This document shows positions 9,440 through 40,327 of a stretch of 44,435 nucleotides of DNA, in pieces. The notes under the pieces were generated by a model. The model was not told the DNA's origin. It ran no database searches and was given only the letters and a program-made list of their open reading frames with translations. Positions within the stretch are counted from its first letter, which is position 1. The number at the start of each line of letters is the position of its first letter. Source of the DNA: a virus. The DNA lies in the IMG/VR virus record IMGVR_UViG_3300007539_000043, positions 1 through 44,435 of that record, one strand, 5' to 3'. A program made the translations under genes and the position numbers.

Positions 9440-12400
9440 ATGTCCGAGTTTATAAATAAAAAGATAAAAGAACTAGAAAATAGTCCAGCACTCAAAGCAG
9501 ATGCAGAGAGGACACACGCTAAAATATTGGATGGAAGTTGGTGGGATCTTCGATATCCCGATCAAAATTCGATAACAAACGTAAACACATGGTCACGAAT
9601 ACGAGAAGTTCCAGCACGCGACAGCGAATTTGCAGCCCTATCCCATCACAATGCAGCCTACAATTTTTGGTTAGAGAATTATCGAAATGAAGGTGCCATA
9701 CCAGAAGAAGAATTTTTGAAAAATTTTGGAATAGAGGGTCTTCCATATCCATCGATAAGAAGGCCGAATTATTTGACAGAAGAAGAGTTTTTTTATCAAG
9801 CTAGGAAATTTTGGGCGGCGTTCATAGGTATCGATGAATTTTTAACTCATGCAGGAATATACCCAACTTTTGAAGAAATTTTATTTAATGCCTACCTCAA
9901 TAGCTCCAGGTATTTAGCAATACAACAATACGAAGATGAAATCCGAAGACAACAAAATGAAAATCTAGAGGTAATCGGTCAACGCCGGTCTCTTAAAGAT
10001 GGTGTCGTCCTCGACTCCGGAGAGACAAAGATCATTGACCAAGCACGTGCAAACGAGCTTGATAGACTACAAAAAAGACTAAAAGAGGGAGTATTTGACG
10101 AATTTGATGTTGCTTCTCTTACTGGAATCGGCCTCGGTGATATAATACGTCGAGCAAGAGTAAATCAGCAAGCATTGTTATCTAACTTTTTAGAGCCATT
10201 TAAAGAAGTCAACAGGGTCAGACAAGAAGGAATTTTGTTAAAATCTCCAGGAAATCAAGAAATGTATATGCTGGATGGCAATCCTTTAGTGTTGGTCAAC
10301 AAAATGATACATAATCAGGGTGCCGATGAATTTGTCAACATTAAAACAAGTGAATTATCAAGTCTTGTCCCTATGATACGGTTATTTAAAGTTTATCGTG
10401 ATAAAGATAAAAAAACAAGACAAGTAGAGATATCCTTTGATACCTTTACGGATGTGAGAGAAAAGAAAGTTCTTGATACCCGCCGTGCCTCCTCTGTTGG
10501 AATAAAATCTTTCGATTGGAGTTTGAATGCCACAGATCCAGCAACCATCAGGGACGACATTGAAGCAAAATTAGTCTTATATTTTCAGAGTTTCGACGAC
10601 TTGACCAGAGACAATGGAGATTTTCAGTATCAAGATTTGTTAGTTAGACCAGCAGTAGATAGAAGGATGGATGAAGACATCAATGATCCAAGTTTTTATG
10701 AAATAAAAGCTGTTGTGGGTTGGCACCCCTTGGATTCAACAAAGACAATGAGTAAGAGTATGTTGGATGCTTGTACTAATCAGCAATTAGCACTTTTTTT
10801 GACCTTGAAGGATCATGAATTTAACTTTACACAACAGGGAACTTTTGAATTAACGATAACATATCGAGGAAGACTAGAACAACTGGTTCAGGATCCAAGG
10901 TTTGACGTCCTATCTAGCGAAAAGGGTAAAAATCAAATAGATAAACTTCGAGAAGAATTGAGCATGCTCCAAAAAAGATGCGAAAGTGATCGTGGTGAAG
11001 GCTATAAAAAGAGAGTGAAAGAACTAGAAGAGTTAATAGCCAATATTAAAGTGAGACAAAAAGATGAATTTGCACAATCTCTGATGACAACCATGACAGA
11101 AAACGGAAATATTCACTTGCTAACGAAATATACAATCCAAGACCTTGCTGAATTAACAGATTTTGAATATATTCCAGATAGCAAGAAGATATCTCAAAAT
11201 GATGTTTCTGATAGTTTACTATTTACTGAAATATCTAAAGAAACAGGAGATTCTAGAAACGAAAGTTTAATGAATATAAATTATGATTCCCAAACTGCCG
11301 AAGAGATTTTTGAAAAACTAGAACAACAACAAAATCAGGATGATACGGGAGTTAGAGAGATAATGCCAATTGCTTGGTTTTATTTTGGAGATTTAGTAAA
11401 GGCTGCTATAAAACATACTCTCAATATAAACAGGGTATCAGAAAGTAATAATCAAGATAATCAAATAATACAAAATCAAATAGCGAAAAATGTAAATATT
11501 TTATTGGGATCGATTACGGTCAATGAGAATAATGCCGAAATAACTGTTAATTTAGCAGACTTACCAATATCTATGAATTTGTTTACCAAGTGGTTTAATA
11601 CATATATCGTAGAACCGGAGCGCTCAAATTTACCTTTTATCCAGTTTATGAGAAGTGCGGTAAAAAATCTGGCTATTGAGAGTCTTCGTTCGCCTGCTTC
11701 AGCGAGAGTTGGATCTCCAAAAGCAGGAGTGTTTATTGATAAAAGTACTACATTCTCGATACCCAGCAATAATCCTGGAGCTAGTTCAGAGGGACAAATA
11801 GGCCAGAATCCTTTGGATAAGTTTGGTAAACCCTCGGGCGAACAATCGAGATTCATCAAAGCGGCATACGAAGAATTGGGCATTTCAAAAGATATAACCA
11901 TAATAGAAACCGCAGAATCAACTCACATAATAAAAATAGATGAGATGAATCTTCTGAATTCTTATAACATCATTGGAGACAGAACACAAGTAAAAAATAT
12001 GACTATTGACAATTCTTATCACTGTATGATGTTTTATGTGCAGACTGATGTTGGGTTCGGAAAATTAAGTGGAAACTTTAAAGACGATAGAGAAAACGGA
12101 GTACAACATTTATATATTGGAGCAGATCGCGGAATCTTGAAAGAGGCTAATTTTTCTAAAAATGAACAACCTTTCTTGAGAGAGGCGAGAACGCAGTTAA
12201 ACGGATTGAATCCCTTGGCACAATTAGCGGCAACTTACGATGTCAATCTGAAACTCGTTGGTAATACAATCTTTTGGCCAGGTCAATATGTTTATATTAG
12301 CCCAATAGGATTTGGTACTGGACTCGGAGAACCACAGACGCGCGGCTCAATATCAAATCAACTAGGCCTTGGTGGATATCATCTGATAACAAATGTTCAG

Positions 12401-12520
12401 TGCTATATAGAAAGTGGTAAATTTGAAACTTCTGTCAAAGCACTCTTCGAAACTTCTGGAGATGGTAGATCCAACATCGATAGAGAAATAGATAAAAATA
12501 AAACCTGTAAAGATAATTAA
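9440..12520 (+). CDS. Large baseplate/tail structural protein
   Basis: This 1026-residue protein is the second largest product in the tail module. It has an aromatic, charged N-terminal region (WWDLRYPDQ, about 35), a coiled-coil-like segment around 495-545 (EELSMLQKRCE, ELEELIANIKVRQK), and a C-terminal beta-rich domain (about 850-1010) with TIFWPGQYVYISP and LGLGGYHLITNVQCYIESGKF, a pattern typical of baseplate hub-like proteins. No lysozyme or protease motif was seen. It probably helps form the hub or wedge of the baseplate. I cannot match it confidently to a single T4 gene product. Confidence 0.65.
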   Translation: MSEFINKKIKELENSPALKADAERTHAKILDGSWWDLRYPDQNSITNVNTWSRIREVPARDSEFAALSHHNAAYNFWLENYRNEGAIPEEEFLKNFGIEGLPYPSIRRPNYLTEEEFFYQARKFWAAFIGIDEFLTHAGIYPTFEEILFNAYLNSSRYLAIQQYEDEIRRQQNENLEVIGQRRSLKDGVVLDSGETKIIDQARANELDRLQKRLKEGVFDEFDVASLTGIGLGDIIRRARVNQQALLSNFLEPFKEVNRVRQEGILLKSPGNQEMYMLDGNPLVLVNKMIHNQGADEFVNIKTSELSSLVPMIRLFKVYRDKDKKTRQVEISFDTFTDVREKKVLDTRRASSVGIKSFDWSLNATDPATIRDDIEAKLVLYFQSFDDLTRDNGDFQYQDLLVRPAVDRRMDEDINDPSFYEIKAVVGWHPLDSTKTMSKSMLDACTNQQLALFLTLKDHEFNFTQQGTFELTITYRGRLEQLVQDPRFDVLSSEKGKNQIDKLREELSMLQKRCESDRGEGYKKRVKELEELIANIKVRQKDEFAQSLMTTMTENGNIHLLTKYTIQDLAELTDFEYIPDSKKISQNDVSDSLLFTEISKETGDSRNESLMNINYDSQTAEEIFEKLEQQQNQDDTGVREIMPIAWFYFGDLVKAAIKHTLNINRVSESNNQDNQIIQNQIAKNVNILLGSITVNENNAEITVNLADLPISMNLFTKWFNTYIVEPERSNLPFIQFMRSAVKNLAIESLRSPASARVGSPKAGVFIDKSTTFSIPSNNPGASSEGQIGQNPLDKFGKPSGEQSRFIKAAYEELGISKDITIIETAESTHIIKIDEMNLLNSYNIIGDRTQVKNMTIDNSYHCMMFYVQTDVGFGKLSGNFKDDRENGVQHLYIGADRGILKEANFSKNEQPFLREARTQLNGLNPLAQLAATYDVNLKLVGNTIFWPGQYVYISPIGFGTGLGEPQTRGSISNQLGLGGYHLITNVQCYIESGKFETSVKALFETSGDGRSNIDREIDKNKTCKDN

Positions 12521-12524
12521 TGTT

Positions 12525-13814
12525 ATGCCGATTGATAAAAGATTTATGAATGCCAAAAATAATTTAAAAGCTTCTGAGCTTTTTGATAAAAGGCTTATAT
12601 ACAAATCCTTTGCATACTCAGAAGACGATAACCCAACTTTATTTGTCGATCTTTATCCGATAAGACAATTTATGGTGAATGAAAATTATTTGTATGGTAG
12701 AATAGACGATCTCTTTAGCCCAGTTGTACCAAGAAAAGAAAGAATGCTCCCATTGGAAACAGGAACAAGTCAGCATGCTCTTGATTTTGTTGTTTTAGCA
12801 TTCACAAACATGAAAAAGAAAATAGAAAAAGAAATTGCTGCGGGAAATATACCAACGGATACTTTCTTTTCAAGACTAGAGGTTGTTAAATCTTATGAGG
12901 ATGCCAATGTCTCATATAACCAGTGGTTAAACACAATAAGAGATTCGTTTTTGGATAACATGATAAAGAGAAATTTAAATAATAAAATTGACAACTTCGA
13001 TACATTCTTGGGAATATTCCGAGAACACCTGACCAAAGTTACCAAAGATGTATATCCAGTTACTTTCTCATCTTTTATGATGGGCAGAAAATCAAACATA
13101 AGAAATACTGGACTTGTTGTTGAAATAGCCAATAAAGACTTTTCTGAAGATGAACAGAAAATTGATTTCATCAATCAGGATTATTTTGATTATTATGTCA
13201 AGCTGGCCGAACAATATGGCTTTTTTATAGATTATGAAGCACCTTGGAGATTGGTTGCGAATATAGTTTCTAAGCCTATGAAGCGCGCCATCTCTGATTT
13301 AAATGGTGATTACACAACTTTGGGTTCCTTTTTCCAAAATTATTATCAAAAGATTGAAGGTCAAGATCTGATTATACTAAAGAATCTAGCTTTTGCAACT
13401 TACACAAATTATATCGACACTACGCCAAATTTTTCTGATGTTACTACCATCAATGGTGTAGCAAAGAAAAGGTTAATAACAAGACAACCAATCACATTTA
13501 AAAAAATGAATGAAGAATATAGTGATGTGTTTTGGATGAATTATTATATCGATATAAAGAATTCTGAAAAAAGTCTAAACTATGATAGAAATCAGATTGA
13601 TAATATAAAACGTGAAGCATCATTGACACAAAAAATAAGTACGCCAGTTGCTATTAAATATATTAATGACAATTTCAGAGATATTCCATCGATTGAAGGC
13701 TCTTTCTACTCTGATTTGATAAAGGGACAATTTTCTGTTGACAGCCAAAAGAAAACAGGTTATAATAAGTTCATACAGAAAGTAGTAAGAAACTATAGGC
13801 GCAAAACGGAGTAA
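12525..13814 (+). CDS. Putative virion structural protein
   Basis: ATG 12525 lies four bases beyond the preceding stop. The 429-residue product is soluble-looking, with many aromatic and charged residues and no catalytic motif I can name. It begins MPIDKRFMNAKNNLKASELF and ends with a basic tail, VRNYRRKTE. As the last gene of the tail block it is likely a baseplate or neck component. A strong sigma70-like promoter (13738-13766) lies inside its 3' end and reads into the replication genes, so this gene marks the boundary between modules. Confidence 0.65.
   Translation: MPIDKRFMNAKNNLKASELFDKRLIYKSFAYSEDDNPTLFVDLYPIRQFMVNENYLYGRIDDLFSPVVPRKERMLPLETGTSQHALDFVVLAFTNMKKKIEKEIAAGNIPTDTFFSRLEVVKSYEDANVSYNQWLNTIRDSFLDNMIKRNLNNKIDNFDTFLGIFREHLTKVTKDVYPVTFSSFMMGRKSNIRNTGLVVEIANKDFSEDEQKIDFINQDYFDYYVKLAEQYGFFIDYEAPWRLVANIVSKPMKRAISDLNGDYTTLGSFFQNYYQKIEGQDLIILKNLAFATYTNYIDTTPNFSDVTTINGVAKKRLITRQPITFKKMNEEYSDVFWMNYYIDIKNSEKSLNYDRNQIDNIKREASLTQKISTPVAIKYINDNFRDIPSIEGSFYSDLIKGQFSVDSQKKTGYNKFIQKVVRNYRRKTE
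13738..13766 (+). promoter_or_regulatory. Sigma70-type promoter for polymerase operon
   Basis: A perfect TTGACA (13738-13743) and a perfect TATAAT (13761-13766) are separated by 17 bp, inside the end of the preceding structural gene and about 50 bp before the polymerase start. It would give early or middle transcription independent of the late tail transcript. Confidence 0.75.
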
Positions 13815-13816
13815 GA

Positions 13817-15001
13817 TTGTTATTTCAGGCACTTGATGAAAAGAAGAAGTGTGCTGGCATTTATGTCGGTGGGGAATTGTGTTTTGGAGATATCTCGCTA
13901 GATCATTTATCCAGAACATGGTCTTATGCTTCTTTTTTGGAAGATCGAGATATCGAATACGCTAAACTTTATTGTGGCGGGTTAACGCTGCGAGAAGCAT
14001 GCCCCGAGGCTCTAAAACCACGCTGGGAGGCGATAGAAAATAAATTCAAAGCATTCATTAAATCTTTTCATACTGCGCGCGTATCGCTTAATGAGAATTG
14101 TTTTTTTGATTTGGTTCCTGATAAATATCTTTTGGAAATGTGTTATATTAAAGATGAAATTTGTCGTCATGTATTTGAAAATTACGAGAAGCCATCTGAT
14201 TATGAATATAAGCTTGAATTGACAAAGGTATTATCGAAAATCAAATCCCAGCCTTTAAAGATAAACTCAAGAAATCTATTGATGTTTAAACATAAACATC
14301 GACAGTTTGCAAAAAAATTAAATAAAATTGAACCTTATTGTAAATTCAATATCGATGGTGCCAAAACAGGGCGATTGACCACAACTCCCAGTGGGTTTCC
14401 AATACTAACTTTAAACAAAGAATATAGATCAGTCATCGAGCCTCATAATGATTTCTTTATTGAATTGGATTTCAATGCGGCAGAGTTGAGAACCCTTTTG
14501 GCCCTTCAAGGAAAAGAGCAGCCAAAAGAAGATATACATGAATGGAATGTTAGAAATGTGTTTGACAATAAATTAACCAGAGAAGAGGCCAAAAAGAATA
14601 TTTTTGCTTGGCTATATAATCCTCAAAGTCAAAACACTTCATGTAGCAATGTTTACAACCGAGAAAAAGTGGTACAAAAGTACTTCACTCAGGGCCAAGT
14701 GACGACCTTTTTTGCCAAGATTATTCCTTCCGAAGAGAGAACAGCATTAAACTATATCATTCAAAGTACGTGCGCAGAGAACGTTCTAAGACAGATGATA
14801 AAATTAGATAAGTTGCTTAAGGGTAGAAAATCTTTTATATCTTTCCCTATTCATGATTCTGTCGTAATAGATTTTTCTTTAGATGATAAGCGTATATTGA
14901 CAGAAATTATAGACACGTTTTCACAAACAGAGCTTGGTGATTTTCTTGTAAATGTGAGTGTTGGAAAGAATTTTGGAAACTTAAAAAAGATGGAGATATG
15001 A
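13817..15001 (+). CDS. Compact family A DNA polymerase
   Basis: The start is TTG 13817 with GGAG at 13808. The 394-residue product keeps the family A polymerase core: TGRLTTT (about 184-190), motif A DFNAAELR with Asp218, motif B R255-x3-K259-x3-F263-x3-Y267, a QST helix near 316, and motif C HDS with Asp347. The glutamate that usually follows motif C Asp is Ser here. There is no visible 3'-5' exonuclease domain, and the protein is far shorter than E. coli Pol I (928) or T7 polymerase (704). With a separate DnaE-type polymerase at 28947, this enzyme may do gap filling or initiation. Activity is inferred from motifs. Confidence 0.85.
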   Translation: MLFQALDEKKKCAGIYVGGELCFGDISLDHLSRTWSYASFLEDRDIEYAKLYCGGLTLREACPEALKPRWEAIENKFKAFIKSFHTARVSLNENCFFDLVPDKYLLEMCYIKDEICRHVFENYEKPSDYEYKLELTKVLSKIKSQPLKINSRNLLMFKHKHRQFAKKLNKIEPYCKFNIDGAKTGRLTTTPSGFPILTLNKEYRSVIEPHNDFFIELDFNAAELRTLLALQGKEQPKEDIHEWNVRNVFDNKLTREEAKKNIFAWLYNPQSQNTSCSNVYNREKVVQKYFTQGQVTTFFAKIIPSEERTALNYIIQSTCAENVLRQMIKLDKLLKGRKSFISFPIHDSVVIDFSLDDKRILTEIIDTFSQTELGDFLVNVSVGKNFGNLKKMEI

Positions 15002-15002
15002 T

Positions 15003-15839
15003 TTGAATATTGTTGGATTGGGTCAAGCTGGGTGTCGCATAGCTGAAGCTTTTGGTGATTATCCTCAATATAATGTGTTTAAGATAGACAATGATATTGA
15101 GGGAAAAAATTGTTATAAGATACCAAAGTGTGAAACAGCAGAAGAGTACGACCAAGTAAAGCTTCCAGGGGCATCTAAATTCCTCAAGAAGATAAAAGGT
15201 GATACCTTATTTGTCATCGGAGGCTCTGGTGCGATTTCGTGTGCTTCTTTAAAAATCCTGCATTACATGAAACAAAATACAATAAAAATATTTTATATCA
15301 AGCCTGACGTAGAGATGCTTGGAGAGACGCAAGCTTTGCAAGAAAGGGTAGTAAGGGGGGTTCTGCAAGAGTATACTAGATCTGGTGTGTTTGAGGAGAT
15401 GTATATTATATCCAATAAAAACCTAAATGATATTGTTGGAGGTGCTCCAATTATTGGGTATTACGAGAAATTAAATGAACTCCTGGTCCCAACGATGCAT
15501 ATGATAAACGTATTTAATAATGTGGAACCAGTTTTTGGAAAACAAGATAAACCAAAAGAAACACACAGGATTCTAACAATAGGTTTGTACGACATAGAAA
15601 GAGATGAAGAAAAAATGTTTTTTCAGCTTGACAATGTAAGACACAGATGTTATATTTATGGAATAAACGAAGACAAACTAAGAAATGATGGTAAGCTTTT
15701 GAATAAAATAACAAAGCAAATGAAATCGAAACCAAGTGAAAATTTAAAAATAAATTATATAGTACACTCAACAGACTATGAATATGATATAGGATATGTC
15801 ATTGAGCGCACTCCACACATACAAATTGAATCAAGATAA
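15003..15839 (+). CDS. Tubulin/FtsZ-like GTPase superfamily protein
   Basis: TTG 15003 follows the polymerase stop by one base. The 278-residue product shows the FtsZ order of motifs: an N-terminal nucleotide loop IVGLGQAGCRIA (3-14), a shortened tubulin signature VIGGSGAIS (71-79), KPDVEMLGETQALQERVVRG (100-119) in place of the P-x-x-x-EG-x-x-R region, IISNKNLNDI (135-144) in place of the usual I-P-N-D-x-L, and INVFNNVEPVFG (168-179) at the catalytic T7 loop. The C-terminal half resembles the tubulin second domain (TIGLYDIERDEEKMFFQL). The T7 aspartates are missing, so GTP hydrolysis may be altered. It could form a filament or have a nucleotide-sensing role. Confidence 0.7.
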   Translation: MNIVGLGQAGCRIAEAFGDYPQYNVFKIDNDIEGKNCYKIPKCETAEEYDQVKLPGASKFLKKIKGDTLFVIGGSGAISCASLKILHYMKQNTIKIFYIKPDVEMLGETQALQERVVRGVLQEYTRSGVFEEMYIISNKNLNDIVGGAPIIGYYEKLNELLVPTMHMINVFNNVEPVFGKQDKPKETHRILTIGLYDIERDEEKMFFQLDNVRHRCYIYGINEDKLRNDGKLLNKITKQMKSKPSENLKINYIVHSTDYEYDIGYVIERTPHIQIESR

Positions 15840-15949: not shown

Positions 15950-15981
15950 TTGACTATAGCCAAATGGCAAAAGGAGAAAAA

Positions 15982-16761
15982 ATGGGATTAGATTTAGATA
16001 AAATTCGAGCGCGTCTTGATAACGCGACTTCAAACACGAAAGCTGGAGGGTCGTTTTGGCGTCCATCCGAAGGGACGCAAGTTGTTCGCATCGTTCCTAC
16101 AAAAGATGGCGACCCATTTAAAGATTATTGGTTTCATTACAATCTTGGTCAAGAGCAACGTGGAGGATTCCTTTGTCCAAACAAAAATCATGGTGAAGAG
16201 TGCCCAATTTGTAACTTCAAAGATCAATTGTGGAAAGAGTATAACGCCACACAGGATCCAGACACCATGAAACTAGCAAAAGACATGACGCCACGTCAAA
16301 GGTTTTTCTCGCCAGTTTTAGTTCGAGGAGAAGAGTCAGAAGGTATTCGAATTTGGGGATATGGTAAAGAAGCGTACACCTCTTTACTGAATCTTGTTCT
16401 AAATCCAGAATATGGAGATATTACAGATATCGATAATGGAACCGACCTCACTCTGACCTATGGTAAGCCTCCAGGAGCAAATTTTCCAAAGACAACACTA
16501 ACTCCTCGACGTCGAACGAGTGTCTTGTGTGATGACGCAGTTGGTGGCGATGATGAGTGTAATCGACTTTTGGACAATGTTCCTAATTTTGATAATGTGT
16601 TTGTCAGTAAAACAACAGAAGAAGCACAAGAAGCACTCGATTCTTTTATGAACTCGCTCGATGGAGAAGCATCAGAATCAGATGTATATGTTCCGGCAGA
16701 CAACCCACCTCAAGAAACTTCTGGTGTTCTTGCAGCGTTTAACGAACTTACGGAAGGGTAA
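15982..16761 (+). CDS. gp32-like single-stranded DNA-binding protein
   Basis: ATG 15982 is preferred over 15964 because AAAGGAG (15969-15975) gives a correct SD spacing. The 259-residue product has a charged N-terminus (MGLDLDKIRARLDN), a core with VVRIVPTKDGDPF and WFHYNLG, a zinc-binding loop with the ligand candidates in FLCPNKNHGEECPICNF (about 65-80), and an acidic C-terminal tail (SLDGEASESDVYVPAD). This is the layout of T4 gp32, which coats single-stranded DNA in replication and recombination and contacts partners through its acidic tail. A consensus promoter and structured leader precede it. Confidence 0.85.
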   Translation: MGLDLDKIRARLDNATSNTKAGGSFWRPSEGTQVVRIVPTKDGDPFKDYWFHYNLGQEQRGGFLCPNKNHGEECPICNFKDQLWKEYNATQDPDTMKLAKDMTPRQRFFSPVLVRGEESEGIRIWGYGKEAYTSLLNLVLNPEYGDITDIDNGTDLTLTYGKPPGANFPKTTLTPRRRTSVLCDDAVGGDDECNRLLDNVPNFDNVFVSKTTEEAQEALDSFMNSLDGEASESDVYVPADNPPQETSGVLAAFNELTEG

Positions 16762-16839: not shown

Positions 16840-17283
16840 ATGTCAAAAGTAGAAAAAGGAAATTATGTTAAAGTTCATTATCGCGGCGCACTCGCGAGCG
16901 ATGGTACTGAGTTCGACAATTCTCGCTCTAGGGGTGAGCCGCTGGGCTTTCAAGCTGGTGTTGGCAATCTAATTCCAGGTTTCGATAGCGCGATTTTGGG
17001 CATGTCTGTTGGGGAAAATAAGACAGTAACAATCGATCCAGAAGACGCATATGGTCCTATTCGACCAGAAGCAAAATTAGAAATCGGCAATGAACAATTC
17101 CCAGAAAATCTTGAATTAACTATTGGGATGCCCGTACCATTGACTACGCCGGAAGGGCGAGATTTCGTAGGAACAATTGAAAAATTAAATGAAAATTCAG
17201 TTACTCTTGACGTAAATCATCCGCTTGCTGGGCAGCAATTGGTTTTTGAAATTGAGTTGCTGGAGATTTCAGAACAAGAGTGA
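16840..17283 (+). CDS. FKBP-type peptidyl-prolyl isomerase, SlyD-like
   Basis: The 147-residue product is a complete SlyD/FKBP-like isomerase: KVHYRGALASDGTEFDNSR at the start of the FK506-binding half, PGFDSAILGMSVGENKTVTI, then an inserted flap, and the SlyD signature VNHPLAGQQLVFEIELLEI near the end. Such enzymes speed prolyl isomerisation and act as folding helpers in the cytoplasm. The histidine-rich metal-binding tail of E. coli SlyD is absent. It lies between the SSB and uvsX genes, and a related stem-loop precedes both it and uvsX. A role in folding replication or virion proteins is inferred. Confidence 0.9.
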   Translation: MSKVEKGNYVKVHYRGALASDGTEFDNSRSRGEPLGFQAGVGNLIPGFDSAILGMSVGENKTVTIDPEDAYGPIRPEAKLEIGNEQFPENLELTIGMPVPLTTPEGRDFVGTIEKLNENSVTLDVNHPLAGQQLVFEIELLEISEQE

Positions 17284-17343: not shown

Positions 17344-18483
17344 ATGGCAAAAAAAGCAGCAGGAAAGCTCTCTTTCAATGAAATGCAAAAGTTAGTTAAC
17401 AAAAAAGCGGGTATGAATGTCGCACACAATCTCAAGAAAGAAAACCCAACACAAGTCACAAAGTGGATCCCAACAGGGTCTCGCTGGCTTGACTCAATTA
17501 TTTGCAGAGGTAAACTAGCGGGCATTCCCGTAGGAAAGATAACAGAGATTGCAGGTTTAACTGGCACAGGCAAGTCGTACATGGCTGCGCAAATTGCGTC
17601 AAATGCACAAAAGATGGGTGTTGACGTCGTTTATTTTGATTCTGAATCCGCTATTGATCCCACATTCCTTGAAAATGCTGGCTGTGATTTGGATAAGATA
17701 CTTTACATTCAAGCAGCATCTGTGGAATTTGTCTTAGAAATGATAGAAGAACTATTGGGATCAGACAATCAATTTTTGTTTATTTGGGACTCTCTGGCTC
17801 TTACACCAGCCATTTCGGATATCGAGGGAGATTATAATCCAAACTCTTCAATTGGTGTCAAGGCAAGGATTTTATCGAAAGGTATGTCAAAATTAGTGCT
17901 ACCAATTGCAGATTCTGGAGCAACATTATTAGTATTAAACCAATTAAAGGATAATATCACTCGTTCACCAAGTGAGGCGATGACTACCCCCTATGTTACT
18001 CCCGGTGGAAAGACATTACCGTACTCATATTCTCTACGAATTTGGCTGACAGGGCGCAAAGCAAAAGCTAGTTTTGTTACAGATGATAATGGGTTTCGAA
18101 TTGGTTCAGAAGTCAAAGTTAAGTTAGAAAAATCTCGATTTGGAACTCAAGGAAGAAGTTGTAATTTCAGAATTCTCTGGGGAGGAGACACGGTGGCCAT
18201 CCAGGATGATGAATCTTTATTTGACGCTGTAAAAGGATCTGATAATATCATTCAATCTGGTGCTTGGTATACAATGGTTTATGAAGATGGGTCATCAGAG
18301 AAATTTCAGGCATCTAAATGGGTTGAGAAGATGCAAGAAGATAAATTTCGACAAAGAGTTTATCAAATTATTGACGAAGAAGTGATTATGAAGTTTGATA
18401 AGCGGCTTGGAAAAGCAGAAGATTATTATGACACCGATGAAGAAAACGATTTTGTAGATGAAAACGATAACATTGAAATTTGA
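17344..18483 (+). CDS. uvsX: UvsX/RecA-like recombinase
   Basis: The 379-residue product has the RecA core: Walker A GLTGTGKS (about 72-79), a VVYFDSESA strand with the conserved acidic residue, Walker B-like FLFIWDSLAL, and LLVLNQLKDNI for loop L1/L2 sensing. The start ATG 17344 follows GGAGG. It catalyses ATP-dependent strand exchange in recombination-dependent replication, working with the gp32-like SSB encoded upstream. The acidic C-terminal tail (DTDEENDFVDENDNIEI) is common in UvsX. Size is close to T4 UvsX (391). Confidence 0.92.
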   Translation: MAKKAAGKLSFNEMQKLVNKKAGMNVAHNLKKENPTQVTKWIPTGSRWLDSIICRGKLAGIPVGKITEIAGLTGTGKSYMAAQIASNAQKMGVDVVYFDSESAIDPTFLENAGCDLDKILYIQAASVEFVLEMIEELLGSDNQFLFIWDSLALTPAISDIEGDYNPNSSIGVKARILSKGMSKLVLPIADSGATLLVLNQLKDNITRSPSEAMTTPYVTPGGKTLPYSYSLRIWLTGRKAKASFVTDDNGFRIGSEVKVKLEKSRFGTQGRSCNFRILWGGDTVAIQDDESLFDAVKGSDNIIQSGAWYTMVYEDGSSEKFQASKWVEKMQEDKFRQRVYQIIDEEVIMKFDKRLGKAEDYYDTDEENDFVDENDNIEI

Positions 18484-28946: not shown

Positions 28947-31900
28947 ATGAAAAGCAAGATCCCATTTGTAGGTTTGCACGCGCATTCTGTTGCTGGTTCT
29001 ATTTTTGATGCTCTTGGTTATCCACAAGAACATATGGACTTTGCATACGAAAACGGTATGGACGCTCTAGCTCTAACTGATCACGGAAACATGAATGGCC
29101 TTCCGCATCAAGTTTTGCACGCCAAAAAAATGAAGAAGGATGGCAAAGAATTTAAACCTATTTTTGGTTTGGAGGCTTATTTTATTCCGTCGCTAGATGA
29201 TTGGAGGGTCGAATATGAAGCGGCCAAAGAGGACAAGAAGCGCCGGAAAACCCTGAGTACGGAACGGACAGCGACAACAGTCGAAGATGAAGAGGCATCC
29301 AAGAAAGCAGTTCGAAATATCCTGAATCGCCGTCGTCATTTAATTCTTCTGGCACAGGACCAAGAAGGGTTAAATAATCTGTTTTCTTTAATATCAGAGT
29401 CATTCGGTCCAGACAATTATTATCGCTATCCTCGCGTAGATTACAATACTCTAAAAAAGTATTCTAAGGGGATCATAGCGGCATCCGCTTGTCTTGGTGG
29501 GGTTTATGCTGGTAATTATTGGGAAAATCGCGAGAAAGGGCCAGAGGCAGTCCTGGAAGCTATGCGTGAGACCACAAGAAACATGCTGGAGGTCTTTGGG
29601 GATAGGTGGTATGGAGAACTGCAATGGAACAATATCCCAGAACAACATGAGTTAAATAATTACATTATTCAAATGCATAAAGAATTTGGCATTGAATTGA
29701 TTTCAACATCTGATTCTCATTATCCTAATCCTAGAGCATGGCGAGATAGGGAACTGTACAAGAAACTAGGATGGCTGGGCAAATCAAAGCCAGACTATGA
29801 AACAACAGAACTTCCAGATGGTGTTGAAGAGATTGGATATGAATTGTATCCAAGAAACGGCGATCAGATGTGGGAGGCTTACCAATTATATTCTAAACAA
29901 TGTGAGGTTGAGTATGATGATGACTTGGTAATGAAGTCGATTACGAACACCTATAGGATTGCACACGAGCGTATTCAGGACTTTCTCCCTGATAACGAAG
30001 TGTGTCTTCCTGATTTTGTTATTCCTCCTGGTGAAACTGCCGATTCTGCTTTGAATAAGTTTTGCTTTGAAGGATTGCGATCGAGAAACTTGGCATCAAA
30101 GCCTGTTTATATTTCACGTCTCGAAGAGGAATTGCGTGTAATTTCTGATCGTGGTTTCTCAAAATATTTCTTGACAATGAAAGAGATTAGCGACAAAGCC
30201 AACGACATTATGCTGGCAGGCCCAGGCCGGGGATCTGCTGCGGGGTCTTTGGTCGCGTATGTTTTGGGAATTACGCAAGTAGACCCACTTAAATATGGAT
30301 TACAATTTTCTCGTTTCTTGAGGGCAGATGCGAAAGACTATCCAGATATCGATTATGATGTAGCCGACAGTATGGAGCTTAAAGAAGAATTGATTGATCA
30401 GTGGGGAAAAGACAAGGTTGCTCCAATCTCAAACTGGAATACATTACAATTAAAGAGTCTCGTTAAAGACATCTCAAAGTTTTATGGAATCCCATTCAAA
30501 GAGGTCAATGAAGTTACGAGTATCATGATCAAGGAAGCAATTGGCCCAGCTAAATTAAGACATGGTATAAAATCTGGTGTATATTCTCCAACTTTTGAAG
30601 AAGTGATGGAATTTAGCACGACATTGGGTAGCTTTCTCAATAAGTATCCTCATGTGAAGACGCACGTCGAGGCTCTTTGCGGCCAGGTGAGGTCGTGTTC
30701 TCGTCACGCGGGAGGAGTTGTAATTGGTGAAGATCTAAACAAGCGCATGCCTTTGATCAACTCAGGAGGAGTAACTCAAACTCCTTGGTCAGAAGGTCAG
30801 AACGTCAGACATCTTGAGCCAATGGGGTTCATCAAATTTGATGTTTTGGGCCTATCTACATTGAAGATGATCGATGGCGCGATTCGACACATTCTCAAGA
30901 GAAATTGTGGAATTGAAAATCCTACTTTCTCTGATGTTAAAGCTTACTATGACAAACATCTTCATCCAGATGTTATTGATTTCACGGATCAAAATGTTTA
31001 TAAAAATATCTTTCACGAAGGAAAGTGGGCAGGTGTTTTCCAATTTACGGAGGCAGGTGCTCAAAGATTCTGCCAGCAAGTGAAGCCAACGAGTTTAATC
31101 GACTTAGCTGCCATTACCTCCATTTATCGCCCTGGGCCACTCGGTGCTAATGTACATGAAGAGTATGTAGATATGAGAGAGAATCCGCAGCGCCTGAAAT
31201 TCTTCAATGAAGACCACAGGGAAGTGACAGAAGAGACATATGGATTCCTTATTTTTCAGGAACAGATCGCTATGTTGGCCCACACTCTTGGGGATAACAT
31301 CTCTCTCGACGAAGGTAATATGCTGAGAAAAGTGTTGACCAAAAAGGGAACAGGGAAAGAAGCAGAAGTAAAAAATAATTTACATTCAAAGTTTATTAGT
31401 GGCTGCGTGAAAAAGAATATGAATGTAGCAGTCGCAGAAAGATTGTGGGATACGTTCGAGTATTTCTCTGGATATGGATTTAATAAATCTCATGCAGTAT
31501 CATACTGTATCATTTCCTATCAGTGTGCCTGGTTATTGAATTATTATCCTTCAGAATGGATGGCAGCTTTCCTGGATAAAGAGCCGGAGACAAGAAAAGA
31601 AAAGGCAATCAACATTGCTAAGTCTACTGGGTTTAAAATTCGTGACCTCGATATTAACTCTAGTGGTCGTGTCTGGGAAATTTCCGAGGATGGTAAAACT
31701 CTGATTCAGCCTCTATCCTCAATTAAGGGATTGGGTGATGCAGCAATAGATCAGATTATCAACAATCGCCCCTTTAACAATATTGAAGAATTTCTGTTCA
31801 GTGAAACGATTGTTTATTCAAAGCTAAATAAGAAGGCCCTGGACGTGCTTTGCAGGAGCGGTGCCTTGGAAAGTTTGATGGATGATCGATTTACTGGCGG

Positions 31901-32369
31901 AAGACATTTCTGGGCTGCAATTTGTGTTGATAGGCCTCGCAAGCCAAAGCATCTAATTGAAAATATAGAAGAATACGCTCCAGAAGGTGACTTTTCTGAC
32001 GAAGAGAAGATCGCATATTTGGTTGAATTAACTGGCGTATTCCCGTTTAATCGAGTCATGAAGGAAGAGATCTACGAACAATTAAATCAAGCCTTTATCC
32101 CACCGATCGCCAATTATGACCCGGAACTCTGCGAGGTTGTTTGGTTTATTCCTAGAAGTGTTATTCCGAAAAAGACAAAGAAAGGAAAAGATTATTGGAT
32201 TATTGAGGCTATTGATGATACAAATACATTAACTCGGATTAGATGTTGGGGTGTACAATCTTATGATCGAATCCACGTCAATAAGCCATATATGGCCAAG
32301 TTAGATTACAATGAAAAGTGGGGATTCTCAACTCGCAGTTTGCGCAAAAGTTTTAGAATTTTATCTTGA
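28947..32369 (+). CDS. dnaE: DNA polymerase III alpha subunit (DnaE-like)
   Basis: The 1140-residue product is close in size to E. coli DnaE (1160). It has an N-terminal PHP domain with metal-binding histidines (LHAHSVAG at about 10 and LALTDHGNMNG at about 41), the C-family palm with GPGRGSAAGSLVAYVLGI and YPDIDYDVAD (about 468, catalytic aspartates), SCSRHAGGVVIGE, helix-hairpin-helix segments, and a late OB-fold-like part (VVWFIPRSVIPKKTKKGK). It is likely the main replicase. T4-like phages normally use a family B polymerase, so the C-family enzyme is unusual. Its stop TGA lies in the next promoter's -35 box. Confidence 0.95.
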   Translation: MKSKIPFVGLHAHSVAGSIFDALGYPQEHMDFAYENGMDALALTDHGNMNGLPHQVLHAKKMKKDGKEFKPIFGLEAYFIPSLDDWRVEYEAAKEDKKRRKTLSTERTATTVEDEEASKKAVRNILNRRRHLILLAQDQEGLNNLFSLISESFGPDNYYRYPRVDYNTLKKYSKGIIAASACLGGVYAGNYWENREKGPEAVLEAMRETTRNMLEVFGDRWYGELQWNNIPEQHELNNYIIQMHKEFGIELISTSDSHYPNPRAWRDRELYKKLGWLGKSKPDYETTELPDGVEEIGYELYPRNGDQMWEAYQLYSKQCEVEYDDDLVMKSITNTYRIAHERIQDFLPDNEVCLPDFVIPPGETADSALNKFCFEGLRSRNLASKPVYISRLEEELRVISDRGFSKYFLTMKEISDKANDIMLAGPGRGSAAGSLVAYVLGITQVDPLKYGLQFSRFLRADAKDYPDIDYDVADSMELKEELIDQWGKDKVAPISNWNTLQLKSLVKDISKFYGIPFKEVNEVTSIMIKEAIGPAKLRHGIKSGVYSPTFEEVMEFSTTLGSFLNKYPHVKTHVEALCGQVRSCSRHAGGVVIGEDLNKRMPLINSGGVTQTPWSEGQNVRHLEPMGFIKFDVLGLSTLKMIDGAIRHILKRNCGIENPTFSDVKAYYDKHLHPDVIDFTDQNVYKNIFHEGKWAGVFQFTEAGAQRFCQQVKPTSLIDLAAITSIYRPGPLGANVHEEYVDMRENPQRLKFFNEDHREVTEETYGFLIFQEQIAMLAHTLGDNISLDEGNMLRKVLTKKGTGKEAEVKNNLHSKFISGCVKKNMNVAVAERLWDTFEYFSGYGFNKSHAVSYCIISYQCAWLLNYYPSEWMAAFLDKEPETRKEKAINIAKSTGFKIRDLDINSSGRVWEISEDGKTLIQPLSSIKGLGDAAIDQIINNRPFNNIEEFLFSETIVYSKLNKKALDVLCRSGALESLMDDRFTGGRHFWAAICVDRPRKPKHLIENIEEYAPEGDFSDEEKIAYLVELTGVFPFNRVMKEEIYEQLNQAFIPPIANYDPELCEVVWFIPRSVIPKKTKKGKDYWIIEAIDDTNTLTRIRCWGVQSYDRIHVNKPYMAKLDYNEKWGFSTRSLRKSFRILS

Positions 32370-32617: not shown

Positions 32618-33559
32618 ATGCAGAATCTTGGATATGCGTGTATCAACATGGGCCTCTCGGAGCGCCCCAAGAAAAGTCGAGTGACAACAAATCGTTCAAT
32701 GATAAAGAGGACATTCCAAGAGAAGGGAGTACCATATGCGTCAGAATTAGCGCTGCAAAATGTACGTGATCTTTATGAGATTGTTAAATGGAATTATGAT
32801 AATGATATCTTCTTCTATCGCATGTCTTCGGATATTTTTCCTTGGGCATCAGAATATGATATCAAAGAACTGCCGGATTATGAGAAAATACATAAAAAAC
32901 TTTCTCAGGTTGGTGAGTTCGCACGATCTGTTGGGCAGCGGTTGACAATGCACCCAGGTCCATTCAACAAGCTTACTTCTCCTTCCGAGAGGGTTATAAA
33001 AAACACTGTTCGTGATTTGGAAGTTCATGGAGAAATTATGGATATGCTTGGTCAGCCAAAAACTCCATGGGCAAAAATAAATATTCATGTGGGTGCTTCA
33101 TACAATGACAAACCAATGGCAATTGATAATTTCTGTAGGAATTTTGAATTACTATCTGAATCTGTCAAAAGTCGATTGACGGTTGAGAACGATGATCGTG
33201 ACTCTTTATATTCAACTCAAGAATTAGTTGACAAGGTTTACAGTAGGATTGGGACTCCTATTGTCCATGACATTCATCATCATCTGTTCACTAATCGCGG
33301 TATGTCGCAAAAAGAAGCACTGGGTTTGGCGGTATCAACATGGGGAAACGTAAAGCCAGTAGTTCATTATTCAGAATCGCGAGCAGAAGAGTATGGAGAT
33401 TCAAAGATTAAACCACACGCTCATTCAGATATGATTAGAAATTATATCGATACTTATGGTTATGATGTTGATATTATGATTGAGGCAAAACACAAAGAGC
33501 GCGCCCTTCTTGAATATCGTGAAAAATACAATAACCAAAAACTATTACTTGCAAGTTAG
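32618..33559 (+). CDS. uvsE: UV damage endonuclease (UvsE/UvdE)
   Basis: The 313-residue product matches UV damage endonucleases of the TIM-barrel class. MQNLGYACINMGL opens the fold, and metal-binding histidines and acidic residues appear in LTMHPGPFN, INIHVGASYNDK, LTVENDDRDS, IVHDIHHHLF and VVHYSESR. It nicks DNA 5' of pyrimidine dimers and starts excision repair without UvrABC. The SD GGGGG precedes ATG 32618. It would protect phage DNA during infection in sunlit water. Confidence 0.93.
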   Translation: MQNLGYACINMGLSERPKKSRVTTNRSMIKRTFQEKGVPYASELALQNVRDLYEIVKWNYDNDIFFYRMSSDIFPWASEYDIKELPDYEKIHKKLSQVGEFARSVGQRLTMHPGPFNKLTSPSERVIKNTVRDLEVHGEIMDMLGQPKTPWAKINIHVGASYNDKPMAIDNFCRNFELLSESVKSRLTVENDDRDSLYSTQELVDKVYSRIGTPIVHDIHHHLFTNRGMSQKEALGLAVSTWGNVKPVVHYSESRAEEYGDSKIKPHAHSDMIRNYIDTYGYDVDIMIEAKHKERALLEYREKYNNQKLLLAS

Positions 33560-33567
33560 GAGAAAAT

Positions 33568-34569
33568 ATGCTTAAGGTTGATGTCATCGTCGGTGTACAG
33601 CATGGCGATGAAGGAAAGGGAAAAGTAACTCACCATTTACTGAAGTCTGGCGAATATACTCACTGTGTTCGCTATAATGGTGGATGCAACGCGGGTCATA
33701 CAATTTATCATGAAGGAAAGAAATTTGTAACTCATCACATTCCTGCTGGTGTATTTTTCGGAGTAAAGAGCATAATTGGTCCAGGGTGTGTTGTAGATAT
33801 TAATAAATTTTTATTTGAAATTAAAATGTTAGAGGATGCCGGACTACCAGTGAGAGAGAACGTGTTCATTGCTAAGAATGCCCACATCATTCAGGAGCGT
33901 CATTTGTGGGGGGATTCTGGCGAGACCAGGCTTGGTACAACGAGGACTGGCAATGGACCTTGTTACAGTGATAAATATAGTCGTTCTGGAATTAGGGCAC
34001 AGGATGTCAACAAATTGAAGCCCTATCTTATTGACATGTATGAAGAATTTCATATCAATAATAATGACGCAGTTGTTTTGTGTGAGGGTGCGCAAGGCTT
34101 CGGATTGGACATCGATTGGGGTAATTATCCTTATGTCACCAGTAGTCATTGTACAACTGCTGGTGCTATGTTGAATGGCTTCCCTCCCAAATCTATCAGA
34201 AACGTTTATGGAGTGGCTAAGATTTACGAAACATACGTTGGATCAAAAAGTTTTCAGCCAAAAGATGATATCTTCTGTAGAATCCAGAAAGCCGGAAGCG
34301 AATTCGGTGCAACGACTGGGCGCAAGCGACAATGTAATTGGATGAACTTAACTTCCATTCGTCGTGCTATCGATATTAACGGAGTAAATTGCTTAATTAT
34401 TAATAAAATCGATGTGCTCGAGGAAGTTGGTCAGTGGGCAGTTGAGGTTGGTGGCACTGGAAATGGTTCACTTTTGGTGTTCGGGAGCGGAGAGGAATTA
34501 GAAGACTACATTTCTGAATATCTACATGGTATAAAGGTTATATTCTCTGGAGATCCAGAAAGGATTTAA
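33568..34569 (+). CDS. purA: Adenylosuccinate synthetase (PurA family)
   Basis: The 333-residue product has the PurA phosphate loop HGDEGKGKV (12-20) with catalytic Asp14, GGCNAGHT with the second catalytic histidine (His44), TTGRKRQCNWMN (about 249) for IMP and aspartate, and NKID (about 280), a guanine-binding motif. It converts IMP and aspartate with GTP to adenylosuccinate. Length is nearer archaeal PurA than the 430-residue bacterial enzyme. Phage PurZ enzymes, which make 2-aminoadenine precursors, lack the loop aspartate as I recall; this one keeps it, so ordinary PurA is favoured. The closeness to archaeal-type forms leaves room for a PurZ-like variant. Confidence 0.88.
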   Translation: MLKVDVIVGVQHGDEGKGKVTHHLLKSGEYTHCVRYNGGCNAGHTIYHEGKKFVTHHIPAGVFFGVKSIIGPGCVVDINKFLFEIKMLEDAGLPVRENVFIAKNAHIIQERHLWGDSGETRLGTTRTGNGPCYSDKYSRSGIRAQDVNKLKPYLIDMYEEFHINNNDAVVLCEGAQGFGLDIDWGNYPYVTSSHCTTAGAMLNGFPPKSIRNVYGVAKIYETYVGSKSFQPKDDIFCRIQKAGSEFGATTGRKRQCNWMNLTSIRRAIDINGVNCLIINKIDVLEEVGQWAVEVGGTGNGSLLVFGSGEELEDYISEYLHGIKVIFSGDPERI

Positions 34570-38728: not shown

Positions 38729-39297
38729 TTTTAGAATATTACAGGGTTCGTGAAGACGCTATTCCGCCAACACGGGCAAACCCATCAGACGCAGGTTTAG
38801 ATGTACACTACAATCCAGACGGCAAGTATGATAGAGAGACAGTTTTATTGGGACCAAATCAGAGTGCCATTTTTTCTACTGGGCTTAAATTCGGTATTCC
38901 ACATGGCTATATGCTGGAGGTAAAAAATAGAAGTGGGAATGCAGCCAAGAAGAAACTTTTGGTAGGTGCTTGTGTTATTGACTCTGGATATGATGGAGAA
39001 ATTTTTGTAAACTTACACAACGTAGGTAACGAAACACAAATCATTGAAAGAGGAGATAAGATTGCCCAGTTGGTGCTAGTCCCAGTAGTTCACTTTCGGG
39101 CACTTGAAACACCAAATGATAATCTCTATAACTGGTATCCAATCACTATTAGTGACCGAGGGGATGGTGCTCTTGGGTCAACGGACCAGCCAAAAGCTAA
39201 AACTGCTCCGACGCCTGCTTCCAATCAGGCGGCATCTGTTGATGTATTTTCTGTTCCTAGAAATTGGGAATTAGGAGACTCACATGAAAATCGCTAG
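38725..39297 (+). CDS. dut: dUTPase
   Basis: The 190-residue product contains the five trimeric dUTPase motifs: SDAGLDVHYN (1), KNRSGNA (2), VIDSGYDGEIFVNLHN (3), RGDKIAQLVLVP (4) and RGDGALGSTD (5). It hydrolyses dUTP to dUMP, preventing uracil incorporation and feeding thymidylate synthesis. A C-terminal extension of about 40 residues after motif 5 (proline- and alanine-rich, ending [11 protein letters not shown]) is not part of the usual enzyme. It overlaps the next gene by 14 bases. Confidence 0.93.
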   Translation: MILEYYRVREDAIPPTRANPSDAGLDVHYNPDGKYDRETVLLGPNQSAIFSTGLKFGIPHGYMLEVKNRSGNAAKKKLLVGACVIDSGYDGEIFVNLHNVGNETQIIERGDKIAQLVLVPVVHFRALETPNDNLYNWYPITISDRGDGALGSTDQPKAKTAPTPASNQAASVDVFSVPRNWELGDSHENR

Positions 39298-40327
39298 TTC
39301 TCTGTCTTTTGATGATGTGCTATTGCTTCCGCAATACTCTTCGATTGTTTCTCGTTCGGAGGTTGACATTTCCAACTCCTTATCAGAGGAATGTCGTTTT
39401 GATATCCCAGTGATATCTTCTCCCATGGATACCATAACAGAAGAGAAAATGGCGACCGCAATGTCTTCTCTTGGCGGCCTCGGTGTTGTGCATCGATATA
39501 ACACAATCGATGAGCAAGTAAATATCATGAGGAAGATAAAAGATAAAAATCCTTCTTCACCGACTGCAGCAGCAATAGGAATTTCAGGTGACTATCTCGA
39601 ACGCGCCGCAGAATTGGTGAACAATGGTGGAGTATCAATTTTATGCCTAGATGTTGCTCATGGTCATCATGTCTTAATGAGGGAGGCCCTTCATAAAATC
39701 AAGCGATCTTTTGGAGAAGAAATTCATATCATGGCTGGAAATGTTGCAACACGTATTGCTTTTGAAGATCTAGCTAACTGGGGAGCAGACTCTATCCGCG
39801 TCGGCATCGGCGGAGGATCGATTTGCTCGACTCGTATCCAGACTGGACATGGCGTTCCAACCTTTCAGTCAGTGAGTGATTGTTATTATGCTAATACAGA
39901 TAGGGATGTAAAGTTAATCGCTGACGGCGGAATAAAGACTAGTGGCGATATCGTAAAGGCTCTTGCAGCAGGTGCAGATTTTGTTATGGTTGGATCATTG
40001 TTAGCCGGTACAACAGAGACACCAGGTACGGTTTATCACGGTAATAATCCAAGCATGCGTCCTTACAAGAAATATCGTGGCATGGCATCTGCCGAAGCAC
40101 AAAGATCCTGGCGAGGAAGAACAAGTTCCTTGGAAGGTGTGTCTGTTACTGTGCCTTTTGTGGGCGGAGTTGACAGAGTTATTAATGAATTGGTTGTTGG
40201 TATACGCAGCGGATTGTCTTATAGTGGTTCAAGAGATATCCTAGAGTTACAATCTAACGCAGAGTTTATTACACAAACGTCTGCTGGCCTGATGGAAAGT
40301 AGAACGCATATTAAATATAGGGATTGA
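39284..40327 (+). CDS. IMP dehydrogenase/GMP reductase family protein
   Basis: The 347-residue barrel has [13 protein letters not shown] at the start, the catalytic loop GGGSICSTR with the active cysteine, [21 protein letters not shown] and [10 protein letters not shown]. It lacks the CBS domains of most IMPDHs and has the same length as E. coli GMP reductase. The flap between GMAS and VPFVGGV is short, as in GMP reductase, without the Arg-Tyr pair of IMPDH, yet the C-terminus (QTSAGLMES) looks like IMPDH. It therefore either oxidises IMP to XMP or reduces GMP to IMP. The latter would supply PurA encoded at 33568. Confidence 0.85.

Follow-up and report, generated by a model that had tools for sequence, protein, structure and literature searches.

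The occurrence of a tubulin/FtsZ-like gene among the replication genes of an uncultured phage raises the question of whether its product truly belongs to the tubulin superfamily and, if so, what such a protein may do without the loop that normally triggers GTP hydrolysis. The gene lies at positions 15003-15839 on the plus strand (to which all coordinates within it refer) of IMG/VR virus record IMGVR_UViG_3300007539_000043, analysed here over its full 44,435 nucleotides (hereafter the window). It is an intact 278-aa open reading frame with a TTG start codon, the relatives having a start codon, mostly ATG, at the equivalent place, and its position between DNA polymerase and single-stranded DNA binding protein genes, as described in the first-pass annotation, is borne out by the flanking polA and gp32.

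Sequence searches with the window protein alone returned nothing above cut-off in Pfam, PHROGs or the PDB, and no match among 50,697 named phage records. In IMG/VR, relatives numbered 5, then 298, and then at least 560 confirmed members, with a resemblance that, at the sequence level, is far beyond chance. The family as a whole gave no convincing match in Pfam, PHROGs or NCBIfam, named phage and plasmid records yielded no relatives, and the cut-off of Pfam PF00091, which is a detection rule and not a biological feature, was not reached (best E 0.053 among 50 members); canonical tubulin exceeded the cut-off in 0 of 12 related records. The single match among GTDB genomes (L086, in the WOR-3 MAG CP070664.1) is a viral fragment with N runs on both sides inside a published bacterial chromosome scaffold, and was therefore rejected as evidence of a host; its placement is probably a scaffolding artefact. 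The gene is present in one copy per record (20/20 records), the records of large relatives reach 204 kb, and the family is very common, unnamed and derived from uncultured contractile-tailed phages. Conservation was assessed over 92 members remaining after removal of near-identical sequences, among which the minimum pairwise identity is 34% and the median 44%.

By its predicted fold, the window protein belongs to the tubulin superfamily. The AlphaFold2 model, built from an alignment of 50 family members (pLDDT 94.3, pTM 0.91; pLDDT 93-94 across five models), displays a complete two-domain tubulin/FtsZ fold in which the domains are joined by the long helix H7, with the C-terminal (activation-type) domain modelled at residues 190-270 (15570-15812) and the protein ending shortly after. 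The top Foldseek matches in the PDB are all FtsZ (E 3e-12, TM 0.64-0.74), with TubZ also among the first 50, while the BFVD viral models yielded an uncultured-phage 'FtsZ' (TM 0.79) and phage tubulin entries. Profile-profile comparison with hhalign gave weak similarity to PhuZ (P 6e-4, the best) and FtsZ (P 0.01), whereas six unrelated families of these loci, used as controls, scored P 0.11-0.54; the alignment with FtsZ runs colinearly from T1 via T4 and T6 into H7. Because this profile similarity is weak by itself, the superfamily assignment rests mainly on the predicted structure; structure prediction, a check named beforehand in the first-pass annotation, returned the tubulin/FtsZ fold. The motifs GLGQAG, GGSGAIS, SNKNL and TIGL are likewise present and map to T1, T4, T6 and S7 of this confident model.

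Equally important is the preservation of the nucleotide pocket. The T1 loop (residues 4-11, VGLGQAGC; 15012-15035), assigned from conservation and from the helix start in the model, follows the pattern GxGxAG, with G5, G7 and G10 kept in at least 95% of the 92 non-redundant members (G7 in 91/92), and Asp29 at the end of S2 is kept in 91/92. The T4 loop (residues 72-80, IGGSGAISC; 15216-15242), identified by conservation and alignment, corresponds to the FtsZ GGGTGTG, reads G-[SA]-G across the family and keeps G76 in at least 95% of members; the glycine signature is indeed shortened, reading G-G-S-G, as had been proposed. Asn138 (15414-15416), invariant in 92/92 members, falls in hhalign register with FtsZ N165 (E. 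coli numbering), the T6 guanine contact of the IPN motif. Helix H7 (residues 153-172; 15459-15518), defined by model and conservation, carries conserved Tyr153/Tyr154 and an invariant Asn158 (92/92), aligning with FtsZ F182/N186 such that Asn158 matches N186. The corresponding FtsZ/tubulin residues are established guanine contacts, and because the conserved residues fall on them by register, guanine-nucleotide binding is predicted. H7 also bears an invariant His166, for which we know of no counterpart.

The catalytic half of the site, by contrast with FtsZ and PhuZ, is missing. The first-pass annotation had read INVFNNV as a T7 loop devoid of aspartates; the absence of the aspartates stands, and the position does not, since INVFNN closes H7 in the AlphaFold2 model and was rejected as T7. 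The T7/H8-equivalent segment in the model spans residues 173-189 (15519-15569), has neither an H8 helix nor a conserved Asp/Glu pair, ranks as the 12th least conserved of 262 segments and contains a D..D pair in 6 of 92 members, whereas the T7 aspartate pair is kept in 10/10 PhuZ and 8/8 FtsZ proteins compared, where the loop is conserved above each protein's own average. A remnant of the T7 aspartate at residue 175 was also weighed and rejected, that position being acidic (Glu/Asp) in just 51 of 92 members and Lys in 17. Lacking both the T7 aspartates and H8, the protein cannot complete the intersubunit GTPase site in its standard form. The H10 segment, which together with T7/H8 would form the lower longitudinal face, is also poorly conserved, and the T3 region (residues 30-62), part of the top interface in FtsZ, is shortened and variable. 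Furthermore, the final strand stops at residue 270 and just eight residues follow it, so that the H11 helix and tail of PhuZ are absent, and the model of the window protein shows no FtsZ-type C-terminal linker and anchor peptide.

The gene neighbourhood gives an indication of function. Directly upstream (13817-15001, plus strand) lies a gene for a mini family-A DNA polymerase of 394 aa with palm and fingers motifs kept, whose stop lies 1 nt ahead of the tubulin start; its predicted structure is of high confidence and matches Pol I, its length in 119 relatives is 386-420 aa, and there is no room for an exonuclease domain beyond the polymerase core. Downstream, on the same strand, a gp32-like single-stranded DNA binding protein (15964-16761) and a UvsX/RecA recombinase (17344-18483) belong to the same module; an FKBP-type peptidyl-prolyl isomerase gene (16840-17283) sits between these two and occurs in only 25 related loci. 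Among loci drawn from 126 distinct family proteins, 117 extend far enough upstream to be informative, and in 113 of these the first recognised gene on that side is mini-polA (it was not seen in the 0.8-4.7 kb of upstream sequence of the other four); gp32 lies downstream in 121/121. Conversely, the tubulin gene follows mini-polA in 79/79 and 43/43 loci with room (122/122); as the sets comprise the best-scoring 80 matches of each scan and have some contigs in common, they do not sample all phages independently. The two genes usually overlap or lie within 5 nt, with a gap of 230-2500 nt in about a quarter of loci, and the commonest spacings of -4 and -13 nt suggest translational coupling. The linkage may nevertheless partly reflect general genome order, because unassigned genes next to the tail genes, like those at 9440-12520 and 12525-13814 in the window (possibly encoding baseplate proteins), also remain upstream of polA in relatives long enough. 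The window further encodes a second, full-length DNA polymerase, a DNA polymerase III alpha (PHP, palm, fingers; 28947-32369, plus strand) found in 14 of 20 related records; given this co-occurrence, the mini-PolA probably represents an additional polymerase and need not be the main replicase.

Taken together, the reading we favour, tentatively and with slightly less than even confidence, is a nucleotide-binding, probably non-hydrolysing phage tubulin-fold protein that works with the replication machinery, likely partnering or scaffolding the mini-PolA. From its fold and invariant contact residues, the protein would bind guanine nucleotide in the standard pocket; with the GTPase-site parts missing, it would not hydrolyse the nucleotide rapidly and would probably be stable and nucleotide-bound, acting as a monomer, a heteromer or a non-dynamic oligomer. 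Association with the exonuclease-less polymerase encoded directly upstream is suggested by the two-way gene linkage and the likely translational coupling. It is conceivable, if rather unlikely, that the phage has turned a tubulin-fold protein into a constitutive accessory subunit of its DNA polymerase, one that forms no polymer and contributes to processivity, tethering or nucleotide-state control, a role that to our knowledge lies outside the known cytoskeletal roles of the superfamily.

Among the alternatives, a static PhuZ-like cytoskeletal filament survives best, although it too appears doubtful. Such a filament would position replicating DNA and assemble with GTP in the absence of hydrolysis, as PhuZ D190A does. 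The family shares with PhuZ, the jumbo-phage tubulin (including the phiKZ TubZ), a viral origin, the tubulin superfamily and nucleotide pocket, and similar N-terminal and T4 motifs; PhuZ gives the best, though weak, profile match (P 6e-4), and the relatives include large ones of up to 204 kb. The missing T7 alone does not exclude polymerisation, because PhuZ without the catalytic aspartate continues to assemble stable filaments when given GTP; GTPase-dead PhuZ, however, upsets DNA positioning (PMC4244570). Moreover, PhuZ keeps the T7 DxxD (10/10) and requires H11 and a C-terminal tail critical for assembly (PMC7950403), all of which the family lacks, and the T7/H8 and H10 segments of the would-be lower face are poorly conserved, so that the absent tail and unconserved face argue against polymerisation of the family protein. 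PhuZ phages also carry their own multi-subunit RNA polymerase, which (PF00562) was detected in 0 of 12 related records, possibly incomplete, and in 14/14 controls; a nucleus-forming phage lineage was rejected on this ground, and the nuclear shell protein chimallin was found in 0 of 12 records in a search run without a positive control. As for the nonhydrolysing filament suggested at the outset, its PhuZ-type form is weakened by the missing C-terminal helix and tail, the unconserved T7/H8/H10 face and the lack of the RNA polymerase in relatives.

Several genes of nucleotide metabolism and repair occur elsewhere in the window, including a class II RNR gene, an IMPDH/GMP reductase gene (39284-40327), a UvdE-type UV endonuclease gene (32618-33559) and a PurZ-like adenylosuccinate synthetase gene (phrog_1211; 33568-34569), the last of which was found in 6 of 20 related records. 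As phrog_1211 also matches 14/14 control genomes (cellular PurA), the PurZ assignment is putative, and 2-aminoadenine (Z) DNA or another purine modification is possible. The class II RNR, IMPDH/GMP reductase and PurZ-like enzyme, together with the conserved pocket and the invariant His166 on H7, are consistent with a guanine-nucleotide sensor or regulatory GTPase that never polymerises and acts in phage replication or in the supply of nucleotides; its catalytic group, if any, would come from another residue or another phage protein. We consider this improbable: the activity is hypothetical, and most of the relatives examined, whose records are possibly incomplete, yielded no PurZ-like gene.

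Finally, a protein that imitates an FtsZ subunit and so caps or poisons the filaments of the host, also proposed at the outset as an FtsZ inhibitor, is very unlikely, for although the intact upper face with its conserved nucleotide-side loops and the degenerate T7/H8/H10 side are what a chain terminator would show, the T3 part of the top interface is shortened and variable, and the gene is single-copy, keeps its link to polA in 113 of 117 loci and was found in this lineage alone. Inhibitors of FtsZ are as a rule encoded by small accessory genes, and the persistence of the tubulin gene beside polA argues against such an optional host-takeover role.

Compared with known systems, and by the features tested, the family is neither FtsZ nor PhuZ. 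It resembles FtsZ, the cell-division protein of bacteria and archaea, in the two-domain fold with H7, the GxGxxG T1, the Asp at the end of S2, the IPN-type Asn at T6 and the aromatic-x-x-x-Asn/Asp on H7, but differs in identity (10-13%), in its shortened T4 glycine loop and shorter T3/H2/H3 region, in the absence of the T7 NxDxxD, H8, C-terminal linker and tail, and in the tie of its gene to phage polA. TubZ, the partition tubulin of plasmids and phage C-st, compared here by fold and description only, matches in fold and differs from the family, which lacks the C-terminal tail and the T7 catalytic pair. FtsZl1 and FtsZl2 are also divergent families of the superfamily, but FtsZl1 is cellular, bears coiled coils, lies near vWA genes, shows no recognisable elements from T6 to H7 and possibly forms no canonical filaments (PMC2875224), whereas in the phage family, set in a replication context, T6 and H7 are clear and the loss is confined to T7/H8. 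The closest viral model by fold, BFVD A0A6J5RW92 ('FtsZ Cell division GTPase', uncultured Caudovirales phage; TM 0.79), has 452 aa and 14% identity over the structural alignment, a likeness by fold alone.

The phage tubulins named in reviews fall into two groups, PhuZ and TubZ, both cytomotive (PMC7950403; PMC7824862); a survey of virioplankton PolA does not mention tubulin (PMC6302109), and in a marine jumbo-phage survey the PhiKZ-type tubulin is the only one mentioned (PMC9123017). No earlier description of the family was found in the open-licence literature consulted, and it is best read as a further group of phage tubulin-fold proteins beside PhuZ and TubZ, in agreement with the divergent new class that, of the three options first put forward, fits best. 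The family, which has hundreds of members in IMG/VR and escapes Pfam, PHROGs and NCBIfam, does without the hydrolysis loop and could test both whether the tubulin superfamily functions without GTP-driven filament dynamics and whether the tubulin fold can serve the replisome. Its gene also allows an abundant, uncultured lineage of phages to be recognised by synteny, and the polA-tubulin neighbourhood hints at a role of the tubulin fold in DNA replication.
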